From NCBI GenBank assembly GCA_003202005.1, contig QJJF01000001.1:1209099-1273098 (forward strand): 64,000 nucleotides of DNA, written 5' to 3'. This document shows positions 13,982 to 31,394 of the stretch, piece after piece. How positions within the stretch are numbered: the stretch's first letter is position 1; each line of letters begins with the position of its first letter. The stretch comes from Williamsia faeni (GTDB taxonomy: Bacteria; Actinomycetota; Actinomycetes; Mycobacteriales; Mycobacteriaceae). Position numbers and translations under genes: made by a program. The notes beneath the pieces are model-generated. The model did not search any database. It had not been told where the DNA came from and saw only the letters and a program-made list of their open reading frames with translations.

Positions 13982-14929
13982 TCAGGCGGGGACGGCGGCC
14001 GGGGTCAGGACACCGGTGAGGAACCGGACCTGATGTTCACTGATCGACTCATGCCACGGCTTGCCCGGGTACACGTCGAAGTGGTCGCAGGGGTAGTGCC
14101 GGATCTGCGCACGCGCCTGGACCGCGGCCTTCACCGCGGCGCCGACCGAGACGCAACGGTCGAAGTCTGCGATCTGAAACAGGATCGGTACCCGCAAGCC
14201 CTTGGCGAATCGGTTCGGGCGGTGGCGCATGGCCTCGATGGCAATCGACGCGTTCACCTCGTTGCGCCAAGTCGGCCCGGCGATCGAGGCGTAGTCGTCG
14301 TAGGTGCCGGGAAGGTTGAGGAGCGCAACCTCGCCGGGACGTCCGACCGCAGGCAACAGAACGCGCGTGCGACCGGCAGCCGCGGCCCGCTTGTCTCGAA
14401 TCCCTTGTGTCAGTAGGCGTGCGGTCGTCGCCGCGCGATTGGCCGGCAGCCCCTGGTCAGGCGCGGTCAGCGGCGCCGCCGGTGCCGGCATGTCAGGGTT
14501 GCTCGTCACGAGCGGAGTGAGCGCGATGACGGCGGCGATGTCGGTGCGGCCGGCCGCGACCTCGAGGACCAGACCCCCCGACATAGACACTCCCCAGAGC
14601 ACCAGGCGATCGGGGTCGACGCCGGGCAGTTGCGCGGCGGTTCGAAGCGCGGCCTGATAGTCCTCGACCTGTCCCGAGAGTGAGATGACCTGCCGCGGTT
14701 CGCCGGCGCTCGAGCCGAAGCCGCGATAGTCGAAGGCCAGGACATCAAGCCCGGCAGCGGCGAGATTCTCGCCGAAGGATTGCAGGCCGCAGTCCTTGGT
14801 CCCGGCGAAGCCATGTGCCATCACGACACAGGGACGCCCGGCGGGGGTGGCGAGCCGGTCGTCGACGGCCGGGAAATGCCAGGCGTCGAGTGCGACACCC
14901 TGCGATTGAAATGTGGTTGATGTAGGCAC
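13982..14929 (-). CDS. Alpha/beta hydrolase
   Basis: This 315-residue hydrolase has an oxyanion loop MAHGFAGTKDCG, strand DYRGFGSSAGEP, nucleophile elbow GVSMSGG near residue 115, acid region ADFDRC and a C-terminal His in CDHFDVY. The fold matches dienelactone-hydrolase/DUF1100-like esterases found beside monooxygenases. It starts with GTG overlapping the TetR stop by one base, so FMO, TetR and hydrolase form a minus-strand operon. Cleavage of an ester or lactone made by the FMO is a reasonable guess, but the FMO is not a clear Baeyer-Villiger enzyme. Confidence 0.88.
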   Translation of the reverse strand: MPTSTTFQSQGVALDAWHFPAVDDRLATPAGRPCVVMAHGFAGTKDCGLQSFGENLAAAGLDVLAFDYRGFGSSAGEPRQVISLSGQVEDYQAALRTAAQLPGVDPDRLVLWGVSMSGGLVLEVAAGRTDIAAVIALTPLVTSNPDMPAPAAPLTAPDQGLPANRAATTARLLTQGIRDKRAAAAGRTRVLLPAVGRPGEVALLNLPGTYDDYASIAGPTWRNEVNASIAIEAMRHRPNRFAKGLRVPILFQIADFDRCVSVGAAVKAAVQARAQIRHYPCDHFDVYPGKPWHESISEHQVRFLTGVLTPAAVPA

Positions 14930-20088: not shown

Positions 20089-22833
20089 ATGACAGAACAT
20101 TTGCAGTTCCTCGTCCTCGGAATCAGCGGAGGAGGTGTGTTCGCGGCGCTCGCCGTGGCGCTGGTCGTGATCTACCGGAGCTCGGGCGTGGTCAACTTCG
20201 CGACCGGTGCCATCGCCCTGTACGGCGCATACGTTTACGCATTTCTGCGTAAGGGCGAGCTCGTCATCCTGATCCCCGGCTTTCCGAAGACGATCGACGT
20301 GGGTTCGGATCCCGGGTTCTGGTTGTCCACGATCTTTTCCGTTGTCTTCTGCGCGGTCCTCGGACTGGTGATGTACCTGCTGATCTTTCGGCCGCTCCGC
20401 AGTGCGCCGCCCATTGCACGAGCCGTCGCCTCCATTGCTTTGATGATCGTGTTCGTCGCCATCGCAGTCCAGCAGGTCGGCACGAATCCCGTTGGCGCGG
20501 ATGCCATCTTCCCCACCGGGATCTGGAACGTCGGCGACATCCGGATCCCACAGGACCGGATCTACTTCGGACTCACGGTCATGCTGATCGCGATCGCCGT
20601 GGCCGCCGCGTATCGGTTCACCCGGTTCGGGCTCTTCACCCGGGCCACCTCCGAAAGCGAAGAGGGTGCGTTTGTCAGCGGTGTCTCGCCGGACCGGATC
20701 GCCGCCTTCAACTGGATGATCGGCTCCGCGGTGGCGGGTTTGGCCGGCATTCTGATCTCGCCGATCGTGCCTCTGACCCCGACCGCGTACACCCTGTTCA
20801 TCGTTCCGGCCCTGGCTGCGGCGGTCATCGGTCGATTCACCTCGGTCATCGCTGCAGCGGTGGCCGGCATCGCGATCGGAATGCTGCAGTCCGAGGCCAC
20901 CTATCTCCCGCGGGTCTACGACTGGCTCCCGTCGACCGGACTGGTCGAGTTCATCCCGCTCATCCTGATCTTGATCGTCTTGGTCGCCTGGGCGAAACCG
21001 CTGCCGTCGCGGGGTGGGGTCATCGTCGCCGAACTCGGAAATGCGCCATATCCCAAGCGATTGTGGTCGACCACCATCATCGCGACAGCGGTCGCCGCAG
21101 TCGGGCTGATCGCACTCGGGGGTGACGTGCGCTCGGCGTTGATCACCAGTTTGATACTCGGTGTCATCGGGTTGTCGCAGGTGGTTGTCACCGGCTATGC
21201 CGGGCAGGTTTCGCTGGCACAGCTGGCCTTGGCGGGAGCCGCCGCATTCCTGGTCGGTCCGATCACCTCGGACTGGGGGATCCCGTTCCCGTTCGCACCC
21301 CTGCTGGCGGCGTTCGGAGCGATGGTCCTCGGTGTTGTCGTCGGGTTGCCGGCGCTGCGAATACGCGGACTCACCGTCGCGGTGGTGACACTCGCGCTGG
21401 CCTACGCCATCGAAGCCATGTGGTTCCGGAACACCGACCTCGTCGGGTCCATGGGTATCGACGTCCCGTCCCCCAAGATCTTCGGCCATGACATCGGCAT
21501 CGGCATCGGTGACAGCTATCCCCGGGTCGAGTTCGGTCTGCTGTGTCTGTTCGTTCTTGTGGTCGTCGCACTCGGCTTGGCATTCCTGCGCCGGAGTCGA
21601 CTCGGGACCAGGATGCTGGCGGTGCGCGCGAATGAGCGTTCCGCGGCAGCGTCGGGCGTGGACGTGGTTCGAACGAAGTTGCTGGCCTTCGCAATCGGAG
21701 CCTTCATCGCGGGTCTGGGCGGATGTCTCTATGCGTACCAGCAGACGAATGTCTCGTTCCAGCCCTTCATGGCGATCGCCGGCCTGACCCTCTTCGCGAC
21801 CGTCTACCTCGCGGGTGTCACCTCCATCTCTGGAGGTGTGCTGAGTGGACTCCTCGGCGCCGGCGGGCTGGTCTTCTATGCGATGGATCGTCTGATGGGC
21901 GACAGCGGCGGCGATTGGTATCAGGTGGCGGTGGGGATCGGACTGGTGCTGGTTGTTCTTCAGAATCCCGAAGGCCTTACCGGTCCCGCGCACCGTGCCA
22001 TCGCACGCGTCGGCAGCAAGGCCGACCGCGGCCGTATCGGTTCCGTGGTCACCGCGGACGTTCCCGGTGCCGTCGACACCCCGGTTGTTCTGGGGGAACC
22101 GATACTCGAATTGAGCCACGTGAGCGTGCATTACGGCGGTGTCGTGGCGATCGACGACGTGAGCTTCGACGTACCGCGTGGTGCGATTCTCGGCCTCATC
22201 GGACCCAACGGTGCGGGAAAGTCGACGCTGATCGATGCCATCACCGGCCTCGCCCGATCGAGCGGCAGCATCACGCTGTCCGGCAACCGGATCGACGGCC
22301 AAAAGACTCACCAGCGGATTCGTGGCGGGCTGGCCCGGACGTTCCAGGCGATCGACCTGTACGAGGATCTCAGTGTTCGCGAGAACGTGCTGGTGGGTCT
22401 GTCGGCGGACCGCCCGGGCGCCGGATCGACAGGTGCGGCAACCGATGTCGACGACATCTTCGAACTGCTCGGACTCACCGAAGTCTGTGAAGTGCGGGCC
22501 GGCGAACTCTCGCAGGGCCAGCGTCAACTGGTGTCCATCGCCAGGGCCCTGGCCGGGCGCCCCGAGGTACTGCTCGTCGACGAACCGGCAGGCGGCCTGG
22601 ACACTGTCGAAAGCCATTGGCTCGGTGAACGTCTGCGGGCCATCCGGGCGAGCGGTGTGACGATTCTGTTGGTCGAGCACGACATGAGTCTGGTTCTCGG
22701 CATCTGTGACCACATACAGGTCCTGAACTTCGGTCGAACCCTCGCGGCGGGTACACCCGAAGAGATCCGACACGACCGCGCTGTCACCGAGGCATATCTC
22801 GGAAGTACCTTCGCAGGGGAGACGGTCAAATGA
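20089..22833 (+). CDS. LivH-LivM-LivG fusion: ABC importer permease-permease-ATPase
   Basis: One 914-residue frame contains three subunits usually encoded separately. Residues 1-310 are a LivH-like permease (VVNFATGAIALYGAYVYAF) and about 325-645 a LivM-like permease (YAGQVSLAQLALAGAAAFLVG). After a 25-residue linker, about 670-914 is a LivG-like ATPase with Walker A GPNGAGKST near 705, signature LSQGQRQ and Walker B VLLVDEP. It should form the membrane core of a branched-chain-amino-acid-type importer; in catabolic islands such systems often carry aromatic or other carboxylate substrates. LivF overlaps it by 4 bp and a binding lipoprotein follows. The frame is continuous, so the fusion is not an assembly effect of a missing stop. 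Confidence 0.93.
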   Translation: MTEHLQFLVLGISGGGVFAALAVALVVIYRSSGVVNFATGAIALYGAYVYAFLRKGELVILIPGFPKTIDVGSDPGFWLSTIFSVVFCAVLGLVMYLLIFRPLRSAPPIARAVASIALMIVFVAIAVQQVGTNPVGADAIFPTGIWNVGDIRIPQDRIYFGLTVMLIAIAVAAAYRFTRFGLFTRATSESEEGAFVSGVSPDRIAAFNWMIGSAVAGLAGILISPIVPLTPTAYTLFIVPALAAAVIGRFTSVIAAAVAGIAIGMLQSEATYLPRVYDWLPSTGLVEFIPLILILIVLVAWAKPLPSRGGVIVAELGNAPYPKRLWSTTIIATAVAAVGLIALGGDVRSALITSLILGVIGLSQVVVTGYAGQVSLAQLALAGAAAFLVGPITSDWGIPFPFAPLLAAFGAMVLGVVVGLPALRIRGLTVAVVTLALAYAIEAMWFRNTDLVGSMGIDVPSPKIFGHDIGIGIGDSYPRVEFGLLCLFVLVVVALGLAFLRRSRLGTRMLAVRANERSAAASGVDVVRTKLLAFAIGAFIAGLGGCLYAYQQTNVSFQPFMAIAGLTLFATVYLAGVTSISGGVLSGLLGAGGLVFYAMDRLMGDSGGDWYQVAVGIGLVLVVLQNPEGLTGPAHRAIARVGSKADRGRIGSVVTADVPGAVDTPVVLGEPILELSHVSVHYGGVVAIDDVSFDVPRGAILGLIGPNGAGKSTLIDAITGLARSSGSITLSGNRIDGQKTHQRIRGGLARTFQAIDLYEDLSVRENVLVGLSADRPGAGSTGAATDVDDIFELLGLTEVCEVRAGELSQGQRQLVSIARALAGRPEVLLVDEPAGGLDTVESHWLGERLRAIRASGVTILLVEHDMSLVLGICDHIQVLNFGRTLAAGTPEEIRHDRAVTEAYLGSTFAGETVK

Positions 22834-23552
22834 GCCTTCAAGTCAGCGGTCTCGTGGCAGGCCACGGCAAAGTCAAGATCATCCACGAGTTGGACCTCGA
22901 TGTTCCGAGCGGTTCCGTCCTCGCGATTCTCGGGCCGAACGGTGCCGGCAAGTCGACGCTGATGTTGACCCTGGCCGGCCTCCTCCCGAGACTGGGTGGA
23001 TCGGTGTCCGTCGACGGACACGAGTTGCCGAGCGGTCGCGCGGTGAGCGCCAACCGCGCGGGTCTGGTTCTGGTACCCGACAGCCGGGCGCTGTTCAGTG
23101 GGCTGTCCGTGGAAGAACACATCTCGATTGCGCGGCGCAAGGGTGGGCCGACCATCGCAAAGATCAAGGAGTTGTTCCCGGCGCTGGAGCCCCGGTGGCA
23201 GGTGGCGGCCGGATCCCTGTCCGGAGGCGAGCAGCAGATGCTGGCCATCGCACGTGCTCTGGTCCAGATGCCGAAGGTGCTGCTGATCGACGAGATGAGC
23301 ATGGGGCTCGCCCCGGTCATCGTCGAGAACCTCTTGCCGGTGGTTCGTGAGATTGCCGAGAGTACCGGCGCCACAGTGGTTCTTGTCGAGCAGCATGTCC
23401 GGTTGGCACTGGAGGTCGCCGACCAGGCCATCGTAATGGTGCATGGTGCAGTGACCCTTCGTGGCTCCGCGACCGAGCTGACCCTGGCGCCGGAGCGGCT
23501 CGAAGCCGCCTATCTGGGAGGTGACGTCGTCACCTCTGCCGAACCAAATTGA
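22830..23552 (+). CDS. livF: LivF-type ABC transporter ATPase
   Basis: This 240-residue ATPase has Walker A GPNGAGKST near residue 36, Q-loop region VLVPDSRALFSGLSVEEH, signature LSGGEQQ, Walker B VLLIDEMSMGLAP and the switch VEQHV. MSMGLAP is typical of LivF. Its ATG overlaps the fused gene's stop (ATGA). It supplies the second ATPase half, pairing with the LivG-like domain of the fusion. Confidence 0.93.
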   Translation: MSLQVSGLVAGHGKVKIIHELDLDVPSGSVLAILGPNGAGKSTLMLTLAGLLPRLGGSVSVDGHELPSGRAVSANRAGLVLVPDSRALFSGLSVEEHISIARRKGGPTIAKIKELFPALEPRWQVAAGSLSGGEQQMLAIARALVQMPKVLLIDEMSMGLAPVIVENLLPVVREIAESTGATVVLVEQHVRLALEVADQAIVMVHGAVTLRGSATELTLAPERLEAAYLGGDVVTSAEPN

Positions 23553-23633
23553 TTGTCCTTCAACATAGTTAGACCTTGTCAGCCCTGAACTACCGAACCG
23601 CGAAATCCCAACCAACAAACAGGAGATCGATCA

Positions 23634-24893
23634 ATGTCACTCTCATCGAGGAAGCGGTGGGCTTTGCTGCCCTGCGCCGCACTTGCAGTGGCGCTTGTCG
23701 CCACCAGCTGTTCGAGCGACGACAGCGGCTCATCCGGCGACTCGGCAACGGTCGACTTGTCCGTTCTGGGTACAGAGAATCACGCCACCGGCGAACCGAT
23801 CAAGATCGCGTTCGCCTGGACGGGTGAGAACTCGGTCACCAACGTGAACGAATTGAAGCCGGCACAGGCAGCAGTCGGCTACATCAACGACTACCTCGGC
23901 GGCATCAACGGCCGGCCGATCGAGCTGATCGACGTTTGTGAGGACCAACTCCAGGTGAGTGCGGCCCGCGAGTGCGGTAACAAGTTCGTCCAGTCCGATG
24001 CGGTCGCGGTGGTCACCGGTGAGTTCTCCAACGCGGACGCAATGGCGAGCATCACCTCGGCCTCGGGAATGCCGTACCTGACAGTGGCAGGTGGGCAACA
24101 GTCGATGTCGCTACCGAACACGTATGTGCTCGGCAACCTGCTTGCTCCCATCATCGGTACGCCAGCTGCGTATGCGAAGGACAAGGGCTACAAGAAGGTG
24201 GCCGTCTTGACGATCGACAGTCCGACAGCGGTCCTGCCGCTCAAGGCACTGGGGCCGATGGCATTCGGAAACGCCGGAGTCCAGATGGATCTCGTCCCGG
24301 TCCCGCCCGGCACCCCGGACATGACCTCACAGGTGCAGGCTGCGTTGGAGAAAGACCCCGACATGTTCCATATCCTTGGCGACGCGCCCTTCTGCGCGGC
24401 CGCACTCAAGGCGATGCGGACACTCAACGCCACCCAGGAAACGATGCTGATCACGCAGTGCATCGGTGACGACGAAATCGGCAAGCAGATTCCGGGTGGG
24501 TACGCCGACATGCCGATCGCCGCATCACGCACCCTGGACCCGACCAACGAGGACGTCGCGATCTTCGAGGCGGCTCTCGAGAAGTACAACGGCAAGGGCA
24601 CCGAAGAAGGCGCGTCGGCGTACGTCGGTTTCCTGGGACTGCAGCGCGCGCTGGAGGGAATGACGGGTGATATGACCCGGGAGACCATCGCGGCCCGCCT
24701 GGGTGCGATGCCGGAACCGCTGCCGCTGCCGTTGGGCGCCGGAGTGACGTTCCAGTGTGGCACCAAGCCGATCCCGATCACGCCGAACATCTGCACCAAA
24801 GAGGGACTCGTCGGTAAGTCGGAGGAAGACGGGACGATCGTCGACCTGAAGCCCATCGACGTCGGTTACCTGTTCGTCCAGCCGACGACCTGA
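23634..24893 (+). CDS. Type I periplasmic-binding-like lipoprotein (Liv-type substrate binding protein)
   Basis: This 419-residue extracytoplasmic receptor starts with a lipoprotein signal peptide: KRWALLPCAALAVALVATSC has the lipobox ATSC, with the Cys at residue 26. A Ser/Asp linker and a two-lobe Peripla_BP_6 domain follow (IKIAFAWTGE, VAVVTGEFSNADA, KKVAVLTIDSP). It should deliver the substrate to the fused Liv transporter just upstream. An AGGAG site precedes the ATG and a strong terminator follows the gene. The domain is far from Leu/Ile/Val binders in detail, so the ligand is open. Confidence 0.9.
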   Translation: MSLSSRKRWALLPCAALAVALVATSCSSDDSGSSGDSATVDLSVLGTENHATGEPIKIAFAWTGENSVTNVNELKPAQAAVGYINDYLGGINGRPIELIDVCEDQLQVSAARECGNKFVQSDAVAVVTGEFSNADAMASITSASGMPYLTVAGGQQSMSLPNTYVLGNLLAPIIGTPAAYAKDKGYKKVAVLTIDSPTAVLPLKALGPMAFGNAGVQMDLVPVPPGTPDMTSQVQAALEKDPDMFHILGDAPFCAAALKAMRTLNATQETMLITQCIGDDEIGKQIPGGYADMPIAASRTLDPTNEDVAIFEAALEKYNGKGTEEGASAYVGFLGLQRALEGMTGDMTRETIAARLGAMPEPLPLPLGAGVTFQCGTKPIPITPNICTKEGLVGKSEEDGTIVDLKPIDVGYLFVQPTT

Positions 24894-24957: not shown

Positions 24958-24991
24958 CCGAACTTTTCACCCAGAGATGAGGAGGGCTCAG

Positions 24992-27178
24992 ATGGTTGAC
25001 TCGATCGAGTACCGACCGACGTTCTGCCGAATCTGCGAGCCGCTCTGCGGAATGATTGCGACCGTGGAGAATGGTCGGCTGACCGCGCTGCGGCCCGACC
25101 GGGAGCACCCCCTGTCCACCGGCTTTGCGTGCCAGAAAGGCATCGCGTTCACCGAGGTGCAGAACGACCCTGATCGCGTCACGGTGCCGTTGCGGAAAAC
25201 CGGTGATGGCGGATTCGAGGAGGTGTCGTGGGAGGAGGCGATGACCGACATCGCGGCCCGCCTGAGCGGCATCGTGCGGCGGGAGGGGTCGGGTGCCGTT
25301 GGCTGGTACTTCGGAAACCCGGGCGCCTTCAGCTATTCGCACCTGATGTGGGCGGGCATCTTCATCAAAGGACTCGGTCGCCACACGCACTTCTTCACCG
25401 CTGCATCGCAGGACGTCAGCAACCGCATGGTGGCCAGCCAGCTGCTGTACGGTGTTCCGACCGCGTTGCCGATCCCGGACGTGCTGCGGACGGAACTCCT
25501 CGTCGTGATCGGCGCGAATCCCGTTGTTTCCCACGGCAGCGTCCTGACGTTGCCCAGAATCAAGGATCGGATTTCGGACGTCGTCAAGCGCGGCGGCCGA
25601 GTGGTGGTGATCGACCCGCGCAAGACCGAGACCGCCTCGGCGTTCGAGTGGCTCGGTATCCGGCCGGACGGTGATGCCTACCTGCTGCTGTCGGTGCTCC
25701 AGGTGCTCTTCGACGAAGGTCTGGTGGCGTGCGACGCCATCCGCCGACAGGCCGACGGCCTCGAGTGGCTGAAGCATCGGTGCGCGTCGTTCACCCCCGA
25801 GGCCACGTCGGCACGGACCGGTGTCGAACCGGAGGTTGTCCGGGCGCTGGCCCGTGATCTCGCGCGCGCCTCCAGTGCTGCCGTGTATGGCCGATTCGGC
25901 ACCAGCACCGGCCAGAGTGGAACTCTCACCACGTATCTCATCGATGCGGTGAACATCGTCACCGGCAACCTCGACAGCGCCGGCGGCACCCTGTTCGGCG
26001 ATCTGGGTATCCCGGGGCAACGGTGGTCGATGAAGCTCACCGGCGCGTACCTGCGCCGGGCATATCGCACCAAACGGTCCCGGGTCGGTGGATTCCCTCG
26101 CGTGATCGGCGCCGAACCGGCGACCCTCATGGCCAAGGAAATCACCACACCGGGTCGCCGGCAGATCCGGGCGCTGTTCGTCAGTGCCGGTAATCCGGTC
26201 CTCTCGGTGCCGAATGGTGACGAACTCGAGTCCGCGGCAGAGGAATTGGAATTGATGGTCGGGCTCGACCTGTATGTCACCGAGACGACCGCACACTGTG
26301 ACTACATTCTCCCGGTGACCACGATGTACGAGCGCGACGACTTCCCGGTCACCTTCCAGACCCAGCAGACCACGCCGTTCCGGCAGGCGACGGAAGCAGT
26401 GGTCGACCCGGTCGGCGATGTCCGTCAGGAGTGGGAGATCATCGATGATCTGATGCAGCGGATGGTTCCGCGACCACCGGTCTTCACCGTGTTGAGTGGC
26501 GTGCGAAAACTACTGGGATGGTGCGGTGTCGAGTTCACACCGCGAACACTCATCGATGGGATCATCCGCATGTCCTCCGGCGGAGATCGCTTCGGCATGC
26601 GCCGCGGCGGACTGACATTTCGCCGACTGACCGCCGATTACCCCCACGGGAAGGTGCTCGAACAATTCCTGCCCAGCGGCATCGCGAAAACGGTCGTGGT
26701 CTACCGCGGCGGCCGGGTTCACCTCCAGCACGAGAGCATCGCGACTGAGATCCAGAAGCTCTCGAAACGAACTGCGCCCGAGGGGTTCCCGCTGCTGATG
26801 ATCGGACGGCGCGAGCCGCGCTCGGAGAACTCGTGGATGCACAACTCCGAGTTGCTGACGCGAGGAGAGCGAGGCCATCAAGCCCTGATGAACATCAGGG
26901 ACGCAGCCGCGCTCGACATCTTCGACGGTGACCGGATCGGTGTCACGTCGCCGTACGGGACCATCGAGATCGCGGTCAGCACAACCGAGGACATCATGGC
27001 GGGCGTGATCGCCATCCCTCACGGTTGGGGTCACCGGGGTACCGGCGGGTGGCAGGTCGCCAACCGCGCGGGCGGCGCCAATGTCAATCGGCTGACGTCG
27101 AGTTCACCCGAGGACATCGAGGCGATCTCCGGGATGGCCTGGCTGACCGGTGTTCCGGTGCGCGTCGAGCTGCTCTGA
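24992..27178 (+). CDS. Molybdopterin-dependent oxidoreductase, 4Fe-4S containing
   Basis: This 728-residue protein belongs to the DMSO-reductase/formate-dehydrogenase family. An N-terminal 4Fe-4S domain has CRICEPLCG with a fourth Cys in GFACQKG. The Mo-bis-MGD core includes WYFGNPGAF, VIGANPVVSHGS and VIDPRKTETA, and a C-terminal molydopterin-dinucleotide-binding barrel ends in HGWGHRG. The usual Cys or Sec metal ligand is not evident: the corresponding loop reads FFTAASQDVSNR, so Ser or Asp may bind Mo. There is no twin-arginine signal, so it is cytoplasmic. ATG 24992 follows GAGGAGGG. A substrate hydroxylation or hydration role in the island is inference. Confidence 0.88.
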   Translation: MVDSIEYRPTFCRICEPLCGMIATVENGRLTALRPDREHPLSTGFACQKGIAFTEVQNDPDRVTVPLRKTGDGGFEEVSWEEAMTDIAARLSGIVRREGSGAVGWYFGNPGAFSYSHLMWAGIFIKGLGRHTHFFTAASQDVSNRMVASQLLYGVPTALPIPDVLRTELLVVIGANPVVSHGSVLTLPRIKDRISDVVKRGGRVVVIDPRKTETASAFEWLGIRPDGDAYLLLSVLQVLFDEGLVACDAIRRQADGLEWLKHRCASFTPEATSARTGVEPEVVRALARDLARASSAAVYGRFGTSTGQSGTLTTYLIDAVNIVTGNLDSAGGTLFGDLGIPGQRWSMKLTGAYLRRAYRTKRSRVGGFPRVIGAEPATLMAKEITTPGRRQIRALFVSAGNPVLSVPNGDELESAAEELELMVGLDLYVTETTAHCDYILPVTTMYERDDFPVTFQTQQTTPFRQATEAVVDPVGDVRQEWEIIDDLMQRMVPRPPVFTVLSGVRKLLGWCGVEFTPRTLIDGIIRMSSGGDRFGMRRGGLTFRRLTADYPHGKVLEQFLPSGIAKTVVVYRGGRVHLQHESIATEIQKLSKRTAPEGFPLLMIGRREPRSENSWMHNSELLTRGERGHQALMNIRDAAALDIFDGDRIGVTSPYGTIEIAVSTTEDIMAGVIAIPHGWGHRGTGGWQVANRAGGANVNRLTSSSPEDIEAISGMAWLTGVPVRVELL

Positions 27179-27348: not shown

Positions 27349-27780
27349 ATGAACGAGCTGGAAAAGTCGATACCGGTTCCGGATCCGGTGACGCAGTTCT
27401 ACTGGGACGCCGCCCTGCGCGACGAACTGGTGATCCAGGGCTTCGAAGGCACGGACTTCGTTCAGTTTCCACCCGAGGCGGTTGCCGAGGGAATGCCGGA
27501 TGCGGGTGCGAGCAAACCGGTTCCGGTCAGCGGCCGCGGCCGGCTCTACGCCTATACCGTCCTGCATCAGGCTTTTCATCCGGCGTTCGCCGACTCTGTT
27601 CCGCTGATCATCGCGCTGACCGAACTCGACGATGCACCGGGCGTGAAGGTCCTGACGAACCTGGTCGATGTCGCGCCTGCCGAATTGGCGGTCGGGATGC
27701 CGCTGGAGGTCACCTTTCAGAAGCGCGGTGAGTGGAAGATCCCGCAGTTCCGCCCGGTCGGGTCGGGGGTGGGGGAGTGA
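27349..27780 (+). CDS. DUF35 OB-fold protein without zinc ribbon
   Basis: This 143-residue protein has the DUF35 order: an N-terminal helix (PDPVTQFYWDAALRDELVIQ), the rubredoxin-like segment, then the OB fold (GRGRLYAYTVLHQAFHPAF and on). The segment that normally holds four zinc cysteines reads GFEGTDFVQFPPEAVAEG, and the whole protein contains no Cys. In the Ltp2/ChsH2 systems of steroid side-chain degradation the DUF35 partner binds the acyl-CoA and stabilises the thiolase-fold aldolase. The same pairing is encoded here by overlapping genes. AAAGGAGAAGG precedes the ATG. Confidence 0.85.
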   Translation: MNELEKSIPVPDPVTQFYWDAALRDELVIQGFEGTDFVQFPPEAVAEGMPDAGASKPVPVSGRGRLYAYTVLHQAFHPAFADSVPLIIALTELDDAPGVKVLTNLVDVAPAELAVGMPLEVTFQKRGEWKIPQFRPVGSGVGE

Positions 27781-28910
27781 ACCCGGCAAAGGCGAGTGTC
27801 GTGGGTGTCGGCTATTCGCCGGTCTACCGGGAAAAGGGGATCGACTGCCGGCCGTTGGTCGTCGAGGCAGCCAGGGCCGCCATCGCCGACGCGGGCCTGA
27901 CCGTCAGTGATGTCGATGGCGTCTTCGAGTATGCCGGAGACGAAGGCGCGCAGGACATTGCCCGGATGCTCGGCATCGATAACCTCACGACGTACGCCGA
28001 CTACACGGCGCGCTGCCCATCGGCGATCACCGCGGCATTGGGTGCGGAGATGGCGGTCAGATCCGGGGCCTGCGAGGTGGCGCTGGTTGTTCGATCGGTG
28101 ACCCGTGAGTGGGGGACGATGAGCGGGCACAGCGCGCCGGTTGCCTCGGGCCGGGCGCAGTTCGACCTCCCCTACGGGGTGATGGGCGGCATCATCCCGG
28201 TGATGGGCATGCGCAAGCAGCGGCGGCTGGCCGAACTCGGCGACACCGAGGAGTCGTACGGCCACGTGTCCGTCGCGGCCCGCACCTGGTCCGCGCTCAA
28301 TGACCGTGCGGTACTGCGTGATCCGATCACCCTGGACGACTACATGGAGTCACGGTTCGTCGCGGACCCGCTGCGGCTGCTCGACTGTGACTATCCGGTG
28401 ACCGGTGCGGTTGCGGTGGTGATCACGTCCGCCGAACGCGCCGCCGACCTGGCGCAGCAACCGGTGACGATCGACGCGAGTTCGATGGGCACCGGGGCGC
28501 GGGCAGACTGGACGTTCACACCGGACTTTCTCTATGGCGGCACTCTCAAATGTGCCGAGAACATGTGGCGGAAGTCGTCAGTGTCGCCCGCCGACGTCGA
28601 CGTGGCTCAGCTCTACGACGGTTTCACCCACATCACGATCTCCTGGACGGAAGCTCTGGGCCTTTGTGGCAGAGGTGAATTCGGCGAGTGGGTCGACAAG
28701 GGACGAACGATTCAGCCAGGTGGATCGATGCCGATGAACACCACCGGTGGCCAACTCGCCGAAGGCCGGCTCCATGGTCTGAGCTTTCTCGCCGAGGCGG
28801 TGCTCCAGCTGCGTGGGCAGGCCGGTGAGCGGCAGGTTCCGGACGCCGAGGTATCGGTGGTCGCGAACGGTTTCGGTCCGCAATGTGCGTCGATGGTTCT
28901 GACGCGATGA
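27777..28910 (+). CDS. Thiolase-fold lipid-transfer/retro-aldolase-like protein (Ltp2-like)
   Basis: This 377-residue thiolase-superfamily protein resembles Ltp/Ltp2 rather than true thiolases. The normal thiolase Cys-His triad pattern is not seen. The segment VAQLYDGFTH near residue 280 carries the Tyr that in Ltp2 aldolases takes part in C-C cleavage, and NTTGGQLAEGRLHG follows. With the DUF35 partner it probably cleaves a beta-hydroxyacyl-CoA to a ketone or aldehyde plus acetyl- or propionyl-CoA. The GTG start overlaps the DUF35 stop by 4 bp. An aldehyde dehydrogenase gene next downstream fits this. Confidence 0.86.
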   Translation: MNPAKASVVGVGYSPVYREKGIDCRPLVVEAARAAIADAGLTVSDVDGVFEYAGDEGAQDIARMLGIDNLTTYADYTARCPSAITAALGAEMAVRSGACEVALVVRSVTREWGTMSGHSAPVASGRAQFDLPYGVMGGIIPVMGMRKQRRLAELGDTEESYGHVSVAARTWSALNDRAVLRDPITLDDYMESRFVADPLRLLDCDYPVTGAVAVVITSAERAADLAQQPVTIDASSMGTGARADWTFTPDFLYGGTLKCAENMWRKSSVSPADVDVAQLYDGFTHITISWTEALGLCGRGEFGEWVDKGRTIQPGGSMPMNTTGGQLAEGRLHGLSFLAEAVLQLRGQAGERQVPDAEVSVVANGFGPQCASMVLTR

Positions 28911-28953: not shown

Positions 28954-30495
28954 GTGAGCGACGTCAGCGTCGAAAAGACCGAGTCCAGCCTGGAATTGGG
29001 CGAACGGGCGGCCGGCCGCGCCGAACGCCGCATGCTCATCGACGGGCAGTTGGTGATGGCCGCAAGTGGAGAGGAGTTCGACAACTCCAGTCCGGCCACC
29101 GGCCGGGTGCTCGGTACCACCGCATCGGCGGGTGCCGAAGACATGCTCCGGGCGATCGGAGCGGCCCGCCGGGCATTCGACGAGACCGACTGGTCGACCA
29201 ATCGTGAGCTTCGCCGGCGGTGTCTGCTGCAACTCCATGCGGCGCTGGAAGCCGAGAAGGAGGACCTGCGAGAAGAGCTGATTGCAGAGGTCGGCTGCCC
29301 GGTGTCGACGACGCAGGACGCCCAGCTGGATTGGCCGCTTGCCGAGTCGCTTCGATACCCGGCCCAGCTGATCGAAGAGTTCGATTGGGAACGTGTGCTC
29401 GCCGGCGGCGGGTTGTTCGGTGATCGCAATGTGCGCACTGTCGTCAAGGAACCGGTCGGCGTCGTCGGTGCGATCTGCCCGTCGAATTATCCGGTCGAGG
29501 TCATGCTCAACAAGCTCGGTCCGGCGCTCGCGACCGGCAATACGGTTGTGCTCAAACCTGATCCGAATACACCGTGGAGCGCGACACGACTAGGTCGGTT
29601 GATCGCCGAACACACCGACATCCCGGCCGGGGTGGTGAATGTGGTGCCCACGGCCTCCAATGAGGTCGCCGGCCTCCTGTCCACCGACCCCCGCGTCGAT
29701 ATGGTGTCGTTCACCGGGTCCACCGCGGTCGGCAAGATGCTGATGCGTGAGGGCGCCGAGACGATGAAGCGCACCTTCCTCGAACTCGGAGGCAAGTCGG
29801 CCCTGATCGTTCTCGAGGACGCCGATCCCGCCCGGATCGTCTACGGCGCACTGGCATCCGCCGCGCATGCGGGTCAGGCATGTGCCCTCACCACCCGGCT
29901 GTTGGTCCACCGGTCGCTGTTCAGCGATGCGGTCGCCTCCGTGACCGCCGGGTTCGAGATGTTGCCCGTCGGTGACCCGGTTCTGCCGGACACCTTTGTC
30001 GGCCCCGTCGTCAGCGCCGCCCAGAAGCAGCGGGTGCTGGCACACATCGACCGGGCCCGGCGGGACGGTGCGGAGATCACGACCGGTGGAGGTCCGGCGC
30101 AGAACCTTCCCGCGCATCTGTCCGGTGGCCATTTCGTGGCTCCCACTGTCGTTGTCGGCGTGGACAACAGCGCCGCCATCGCCCAGGACGAGATCTTCGG
30201 CCCGGTCTTGGTGATCGTCCCGTTCGACAACGACGATGAAGCCGTGGCCATCGCCAACGACAGCCCGTTCGGGCTGGCCGGTGCGGTCATGTCGGGATCG
30301 ACCGAACGCGGGCTGAGTGTTGCCCACCGGGTTCGTACCGGCTCGATCGGCGTCAACGGCGGCATGTTCTACGGCGCCGACGCGCCTTTCGGCGGCTACA
30401 AGAACAGCGGAGTCGGAAGGCAATGTGGCATCGAAGGTTTCCAGCAATATCTGGAGACCAAGACCATTGCGCATCGTAAGTCCAGGCGCGCCTGA
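28954..30495 (+). CDS. Aldehyde dehydrogenase
   Basis: This 513-residue NAD(P)-dependent aldehyde dehydrogenase has GVVGAICPSNYPVE at the cofactor entrance, FTGSTAVGK, the Glu in LELGGKSAL, catalytic Cys in HAGQACALTTR near residue 310, and IFGPVLVIV. The GTG start follows a GAGGAGA element. It lies between the retro-aldolase and a mycofactocin-type SDR, so it may oxidise an aldehyde released by either. It is only distantly similar to the ExaC-type enzyme at 3942. Confidence 0.9.
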   Translation: MSDVSVEKTESSLELGERAAGRAERRMLIDGQLVMAASGEEFDNSSPATGRVLGTTASAGAEDMLRAIGAARRAFDETDWSTNRELRRRCLLQLHAALEAEKEDLREELIAEVGCPVSTTQDAQLDWPLAESLRYPAQLIEEFDWERVLAGGGLFGDRNVRTVVKEPVGVVGAICPSNYPVEVMLNKLGPALATGNTVVLKPDPNTPWSATRLGRLIAEHTDIPAGVVNVVPTASNEVAGLLSTDPRVDMVSFTGSTAVGKMLMREGAETMKRTFLELGGKSALIVLEDADPARIVYGALASAAHAGQACALTTRLLVHRSLFSDAVASVTAGFEMLPVGDPVLPDTFVGPVVSAAQKQRVLAHIDRARRDGAEITTGGGPAQNLPAHLSGGHFVAPTVVVGVDNSAAIAQDEIFGPVLVIVPFDNDDEAVAIANDSPFGLAGAVMSGSTERGLSVAHRVRTGSIGVNGGMFYGADAPFGGYKNSGVGRQCGIEGFQQYLETKTIAHRKSRRA

Positions 30496-30545: not shown

Positions 30546-31394
30546 ATGGGCAAACTCGACAACAAGGTCGCGGTGGTTTCAGGGGCCGCACGTGGGCAGG
30601 GACGTTCACATGCGGTCAATCTGGCTGCCGAAGGTGCGAGCATCATCGCTCTCGACATCTGTGCCGATCTCGAAGGCAATACGTATCCGCTTGCGCGGCT
30701 GGAGGATCTCGAGGAGACCGCGCGTCTGATCGAGAAAGAGAACGTGCGCGTTTTCACCGCGGTGGTGGACGTGCGCGAACGGGCCGCGGTCTGGAAGGCG
30801 ATCGCCGAAGGTGTCGACGAGCTGGGCCGGCTCGACATAGTCGTGGCCAACGCCGGGATCTGTGCGATGGGCGACGGTCAGACGATGCAGTCCTGGTCGG
30901 ACACCATCGACACCGACCTCTCCGGTGTGTTCAACGTGATCCAGGCCAGCCTGCCGCATGTCGGTGACGGCTCGTCCATCATCGCGACCGGGTCGCTGGC
31001 CGCCCAGCTCGGCAGCTCGACCAAACAGGGTCCCGGCGGCTCGGCATACAGCTTCGCCAAGCAGATCGTGGCACATTACGTCAACGACCTCTCCGTCCAG
31101 CTGGCGAAGCGGAGCATCCGGGTCAACGCGGTGCATCCGACGAACGTGAACACCGACATGCTGCACAACGAAGGCATGTACAAGGTGTTTCGCCCGGACC
31201 TGAAGTCCCCGACTCGTGAAGACGCCGAACTCGGCTTCCCGGCGATGCAGGCGATGCCGGTGGCATACATTGAGCCGCAGGATGTCTCGGATGCCGTGGT
31301 CTTCCTCGCCAGCGATCAGTCGCGTTACATCACGGGTACTCAACTGCGTATCGATGCGGGCGGATACGTGAAGGTCAAGCCCTGGGAGGGCTGA
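30546..31394 (+). CDS. Mycofactocin-coupled SDR family oxidoreductase
   Basis: This 282-residue SDR has the extended loop GAARGQGRSHAV, ALDICADLEGN with its insertion after strand two, catalytic YSFAK, and HPTNVNTDMLHNE. These are hallmarks of the subfamily that keeps NAD(H) bound and passes electrons to mycofactocin. It probably oxidises a secondary or primary alcohol. An AGGAGGAAAGG site precedes the ATG. Its neighbours are two aldehyde dehydrogenases. The mft biosynthesis genes are not in the window. Confidence 0.88.
   Translation: MGKLDNKVAVVSGAARGQGRSHAVNLAAEGASIIALDICADLEGNTYPLARLEDLEETARLIEKENVRVFTAVVDVRERAAVWKAIAEGVDELGRLDIVVANAGICAMGDGQTMQSWSDTIDTDLSGVFNVIQASLPHVGDGSSIIATGSLAAQLGSSTKQGPGGSAYSFAKQIVAHYVNDLSVQLAKRSIRVNAVHPTNVNTDMLHNEGMYKVFRPDLKSPTREDAELGFPAMQAMPVAYIEPQDVSDAVVFLASDQSRYITGTQLRIDAGGYVKVKPWEG

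Follow-up and report, generated by a model that had tools for sequence, protein, structure and literature searches.

The window, a 64,000 nucleotide stretch of contig C1 of the 5.5 Mb Williamsia faeni genome, contains two overlapping genes on its forward strand. The first one, at positions 27349-27780, encodes P0001, a stand-alone DUF35 protein of 143 residues that was identified by its translation, a match to PF01796 and a structural model. The second one, at 27777-28910, starts with GTG and encodes P0002, a thiolase-fold partner of 377 residues that was assigned to a YDGF/GRxHG clade on the basis of PF22691, PDB matches and a tree. In agreement with the initial annotation, which had noted an overlap with a thiolase-fold gene bearing a YDGF motif, the stop codon of P0001 and the start codon of P0002 share four bases, GTGA (27777-27780), and the motif is formed by residues 280-283 of P0002 (28614-28625). 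Judged from the sequence, this overlap makes translational coupling of the two genes likely. On the same strand the pair is followed by genes encoding an Rv0768-like aldehyde dehydrogenase (28954-30495) and a mycofactocin-coupled SDR oxidoreductase (30546-31394); the window shows no hydratase gene next to the pair. Directly upstream of P0001 lies a gene for a molybdopterin oxidoreductase related to the formate dehydrogenase alpha subunit (24977-27178), and the region directly upstream of the pair also contains genes for a Liv-type ABC transporter and a binding protein (20089-24893).

An orthologous pair is present on plasmid pYLL1 of Rhodococcus sp. YL-1, where the genes are annotated as encoding an OB-fold domain-containing protein and a thiolase family protein. 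These are 63.5% and 68.7% identical to P0001 and P0002, respectively. The gene order DUF35-thiolase-aldehyde dehydrogenase-mycofactocin SDR is common to both loci, with the aldehyde dehydrogenase (60% identical) and the SDR oxidoreductase (58% identical) in the same positions, and the same four-base overlap is found at 13986-13989 of the pYLL1 locus (L100). The YL-1 pair is plasmid-borne whereas the W. faeni pair is located on a large main-genome contig, and the upstream and outer neighbourhoods of the two loci differ. A Liv-type transporter is also encoded near the pYLL1 pair, and its presence at both loci suggests an uptake and catabolism cluster. Among the papers searched, none dealt with mycofactocin in connection with aldolases in Rhodococcus.

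Translation of 27349-27780 gave no cysteine among the 143 residues of P0001, as had been reported in the initial annotation. At the cysteine frequency of 0.85% calculated from the 19 other window proteins, a protein of this length would contain no cysteine by chance in 30% of cases, and the argument therefore rests on the four ligand positions instead. When P0001 was aligned with the DUF35 domain of the Ltp2 aldolase complex (6OK1_B), all four ligand positions of the latter (CAAC...CPHC) were found to be occupied by other residues. The former zinc-ribbon hairpin, delimited by alignment with 6OK1_B and ribbon-bearing relatives and by the flanking strands in the model, corresponds to residues 30-58 (QGFEGTDFVQFPPEAVAEGMPDAGASKPV; 27436-27522) and contains neither cysteine nor histidine. 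In profile searches the zinc ribbon family PF12172 did not match P0001 even at an E-value of 10; PF01796 (OB_ChsH2_C) matched the OB fold, residues 58-124 (27520-27720), with 73 bits at a cut-off of 27.1. A sequencing error or frameshift as the cause of the cysteine loss was ruled out by the YL-1 DUF35 ortholog, which contains no cysteine either. Because this ortholog is Cys-free and is accompanied by the same overlap and the same downstream genes, the alignments indicate that the loss in P0001 is real and has been retained.

The impression that the helix and the OB fold are intact was borne out by an AF2 model of P0001 (pLDDT 86). The model keeps a helix (residues 16-23), the barrel and the strands flanking the former ribbon (residues 27-32 and 55-60), and is predicted to have the two-domain DUF35 fold of an N-terminal helix, a hairpin and a five-stranded barrel, although the modelled hairpin geometry may be biased since the AF2 alignment included ribbon-bearing homologs. 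Over its full length the model superposes on the DUF35 subunits of the Sal aldolase (9MYR_B; Z 18.1, 1.7 Å over 134 residues, spanning residues 4-141 of P0001) and of the Ltp2 aldolase (6OK1_B; Z 17.9, 2.0 Å rmsd over 129 residues, spanning residues 7-141).

P0002 matched PF22691 with 118 bits, and its best PDB matches were 4U4E and 6OK1_A. Its own AF2 model was poor (pLDDT 56) and was set aside. In the tree of thiolase-fold partners P0002 is one of 38 sequences in a YDGF clade (98, starred), whose sister is the clade of Ltp2 (9 rows; 100, starred), the two being joined with an SH-aLRT value of 93. According to the roles assigned to Ltp2 residues, Tyr294 acts as base, His296 contributes to the oxyanion site and Tyr344 acts as acid (PMC12329534). 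In the alignment Tyr294 is retained as Tyr280 of P0002, but His296 is replaced by Gly282 and Tyr344 by Arg331 (28767-28769), the latter belonging to a GRxHG motif that almost every YDGF-clade member has. Thus, since P0002 belongs to a sister clade and has lost the counterparts of His296 and Tyr344, it is by sequence a relative of Ltp2 that lies outside the Ltp2 clade, and of the earlier designation as an Ltp2-like aldolase the kinship and the tyrosine stand while the other two catalytic positions do not. The YDGF/GRxHG clade (L037-L063, L083-L105) is broad and actinobacterial, and its members have DUF35 partners or are fused to DUF35 domains; no characterised member was found. DUF35 is naturally fused to a YDGF-clade thiolase in five distinct cases, two of them in the W. 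faeni genome, and together with the coupled gene overlap these fusions suggest that P0001 and P0002 associate. Viewed singly, the pair is an unremarkable and functionally uncharacterised DUF35-thiolase assembly.

The account that we slightly favour as a whole (probability about 0.55) is that P0001 is a metal-free DUF35 scaffold and P0002 a retro-aldolase feeding the neighbouring aldehyde dehydrogenase. P0001 would have lost the metal ligands of its zinc ribbon and kept the hairpin as a metal-free element. By analogy with Ltp2-ChsH2(DUF35), it would most likely bind P0002 in an alpha2-beta2 complex and form one wall of the active-site cleft. P0002 would then most likely catalyse retro-aldol cleavage of a beta-hydroxyacyl-CoA with Tyr280 as base, and the aldehyde released would be oxidised by the neighbouring aldehyde dehydrogenase. 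In this scheme we infer the metal-free state, the complex and the reaction. Retro-aldol cleavage is our best guess and is helped by the adjacent aldehyde dehydrogenase gene: CtSad oxidises the aldehyde that CtSal produces (PMC12329534), and the aldehyde dehydrogenase beside the pair in the window and in YL-1 may be likened to this Sal-Sad partnership. Such a gene is absent next to the pair in two other genomes, G196 and G671. A steroid is a possible substrate of P0002. Counting against this account are also the lack of a hydratase gene beside the window pair, the absence from P0002 of a counterpart of the catalytic Cys304 of Sal and, in the same protein, the replacement of two of the three Ltp2 catalytic residues.

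These replacements are a reason to consider that the same scaffold pair may not be an aldolase, and that the YDGF/GRxHG clade instead performs acyl transfer, Claisen-type condensation or cleavage, which we regard as possible but rather doubtful. The glycine and arginine found in place of His296 and Tyr344 are conserved through the 38 sequences, which would fit a different chemistry, and Cys80 of P0002 (in ARCPSA; 28014-28016) occupies the column of the thiolase nucleophile. This cysteine is, however, a glycine in every close relative (ASGPSG), and the thiolase histidines of HDAF/NEAF and GHP are both replaced (by YDGF and GRLHG, respectively), so that P0002 does not have the nucleophilic cysteine plus two histidines of a canonical thiolase. 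In addition, the Tyr of YDxF, the base in Ltp2, is invariant across the YDGF clade, and the aldehyde dehydrogenase gene downstream in the window and YL-1 likewise speaks against this reading. Cys80 was also considered as a revived thiolase nucleophile and rejected, since it is not conserved (the 69% identical YL-1 protein included) and its partner histidines are missing.

A structural zinc site made of carboxylates only would be unusual, and we consider it improbable that P0001 binds metal through other ligands (Asp/Glu) and is hence not zinc-free. A change of ligands is possible in principle, as shown by the Cys3His1 site of the Shy DUF35 domain (PMC12329534), and Glu33 and Asp36 of P0001 are retained in YL-1. 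The third and fourth ligand positions, however, differ between the two proteins, and the loop offers no Cys or His. Least credible of all is that P0001 is a decaying pseudo-subunit that lost its ribbon as the pair was no longer needed: a second copy in the genome, on contig C26, is plainly decayed, but the frame, start, overlap and OB fold of P0001 are intact, and the Cys-free form has been kept in YL-1 (64% identical) together with the pattern QGFE..DFVQFPP in the former ribbon and the neighbour order. The C26 copy (L004; C26:13821-14461) is a remnant of a Cys-bearing version of the pair with an internal deletion, in which the DUF35 sequence breaks off at VDVPAG and continues, out of frame, into the end of a P0002-like thiolase (67% identical).

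Returning to the metal-free scaffold, the orthologs of the pair show how the ribbon has behaved over short distances. The thiolase tree delineates an ortholog group of six members (100, starred). Their DUF35 partners carry the ribbon cysteines in G196 and G671, a single cysteine in G219 and none in the window and YL-1; the partner of the sixth member, which is located at a contig end, was not found. Because G219 is paired in the thiolase tree with the ribbon-bearing G196 (96, starred), two separate ribbon losses are suggested inside this one group. The YDGF and GRxHG motifs of the thiolase partner are unchanged throughout the group, whatever the state of the DUF35 ribbon, and for this reason the ribbon ligands appear to be dispensable for the chemistry of the partner. 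A scan of genome contigs with P0001 recovered only relatives that are 31-47% identical, biased to the pattern HQAFHPAF, all of which bear the ribbon where that part is readable.

The frequency of ribbon loss was surveyed using PF01796 domains in 45 genomes spread over the phylum, 19 of which, W. faeni included, gave hits. After exclusion of L120 and L127, which were miscut near contig ends, 111 domains were usable, and ribbon cysteines, scored over the 48 residues that precede the barrel, were missing in 23 of them (about 20%; 22 with none and one with a single Cys). In the W. faeni genome six out of 14 DUF35 domains are of this kind: the window gene, C9:146223, the ChsH2 domain at C4:91872, both modules at C1:431180-431851 and C24:1986. 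By parsimony, the ribbon state switches 12 times on a DUF35 tree of 192 rows, which was built without the ribbon columns and has few columns; only four of these switches are forced by starred branches. In this tree P0001 and its YL-1 counterpart group together as a clade (95, starred) among ribbon-bearing proteins. The sequences thus indicate that the Cys-free state of P0001 is not exceptional among DUF35 domains but common. The two modules at C1:431180-431851 (L026/L027) are arranged in tandem in one protein, and Cys-free tandem modules of a similar kind are present in further survey genomes.

Ribbon loss also affects ChsH2 of the cholesterol aldolase. The ChsH2 of W. faeni (L207; C4:91113-92138) consists of a MaoC and a DUF35 domain, matches M. 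tuberculosis ChsH2 (4WNB) and is encoded in the order acyl-CoA dehydrogenase, ChsH2, ChsH1, Ltp2 (YDHF). Its ribbon region reads KLEDGSLRHPPVPAIWKAKGQDTD and contains no ribbon cysteine. Among the 29 ChsH2 proteins from Mycobacteriales genomes with a match (L207, L208-L235), the ribbon cysteines are lacking in 23, of which 22 have no Cys and one has a single Cys, whereas six have all four. At the loci that extend far enough, the YDHF and GEAY motifs of Ltp2 are kept beside Cys-free as well as four-Cys (L224) ChsH2. The occurrence of Cys-free ChsH2 beside an intact Ltp2 shows, at the level of sequence, that evolution tolerates loss of the ribbon in a real aldolase. In nine ChsH2 proteins from a single genus (g29) the MaoC half shares 70-88% identity with 4WNB, and the ribbon is missing from every one of them; M. 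tuberculosis ChsH2 is presumably without it as well. The proposal in the initial annotation of a zinc-free variant of the steroid-type complex is thus not supported as something out of the ordinary: the alternative that it had itself named, a subfamily commonly without the ribbon, is largely what was found (23/111 DUF35 domains and 23/29 ChsH2, W. faeni's own among them).

Taken together, we think it quite probable that DUF35 can dispense with the metal site of its zinc ribbon and has given it up on many occasions without losing the scaffold role, that metal-free DUF35 domains are widespread, and that the ChsH2-Ltp2 complex of most Mycobacteriales, probably including M. tuberculosis, is zinc-free. 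If true, the latter contradicts the impression given by solved structures that DUF35 binds zinc. Zinc is bound by every DUF35 member whose structure had been characterised by 2019 (PMC6996347), and papers describe the domain accordingly, whereas about a fifth of the sampled domains and most ChsH2 of the order are free of the ligands. In the case of Shy, the shape of the substrate cleft has been attributed to the zinc finger (PMC12329534). The existence of orthologs with and without the ribbon, with partner motifs unchanged, raises the question of what role the ribbon plays in cleft shape or specificity. The repeated loss of the zinc site is more useful than the single pair in the window, and it merits a short study.

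Comparison with known systems places the window pair as follows. Like Ltp2-ChsH2(DUF35) of Thermomonospora curvata (6OK1), it combines a DUF35 with a thiolase-fold protein that has the Tyr of YDxF. In 6OK1, however, the DUF35 domain has a four-Cys zinc site and is fused to a MaoC hydratase, whereas P0001 has no such site and is encoded by a separate small gene; Ltp2 has both His296 and Tyr344, which P0002 lacks. The Mycobacteriales ChsH2-Ltp2 systems, including the igr-type operon on C4 of W. faeni, share with the window a DUF35 without ribbon cysteines beside a thiolase-fold aldolase. There, the DUF35 is a C-terminal domain and the partner has YDHF and GEAY (where the locus reaches) instead of YDGF, and the loss of the ribbon maps to another branch of the DUF35 tree. 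In ChsH4-Atf1 of Mycolicibacterium neoaurum, which resembles the window pair by description, a stand-alone DUF35 protein of 138 residues shares its operon with a thiolase-fold aldolase; the part of this system in sterol side-chain metabolism has been demonstrated (PMC10398937), whereas the window pair is at most a candidate for such a role. The Sal-Shy(DUF35) bile-acid aldolase of Comamonas testosteroni (9MYR) provides the best fold match to P0001 and has an altered zinc site as well. An aldehyde dehydrogenase acts on its product (PMC12329534), and in the window an aldehyde dehydrogenase gene is adjacent. The Shy domain still binds zinc, unlike what is expected for the Cys- and His-free loop of P0001, and the catalytic Cys304 of Sal is situated in YDCY where P0002 has YDGF. 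A further group of Cys-free stand-alone DUF35 proteins (L021, at C9:146070-146417, L057, L130 and L146) is characterised by the pattern YSPS...YVFYPR.LAPGTLADDL, and at the two loci examined, L021 and L057, a YDCY thiolase-fold gene adjoins the DUF35 gene.
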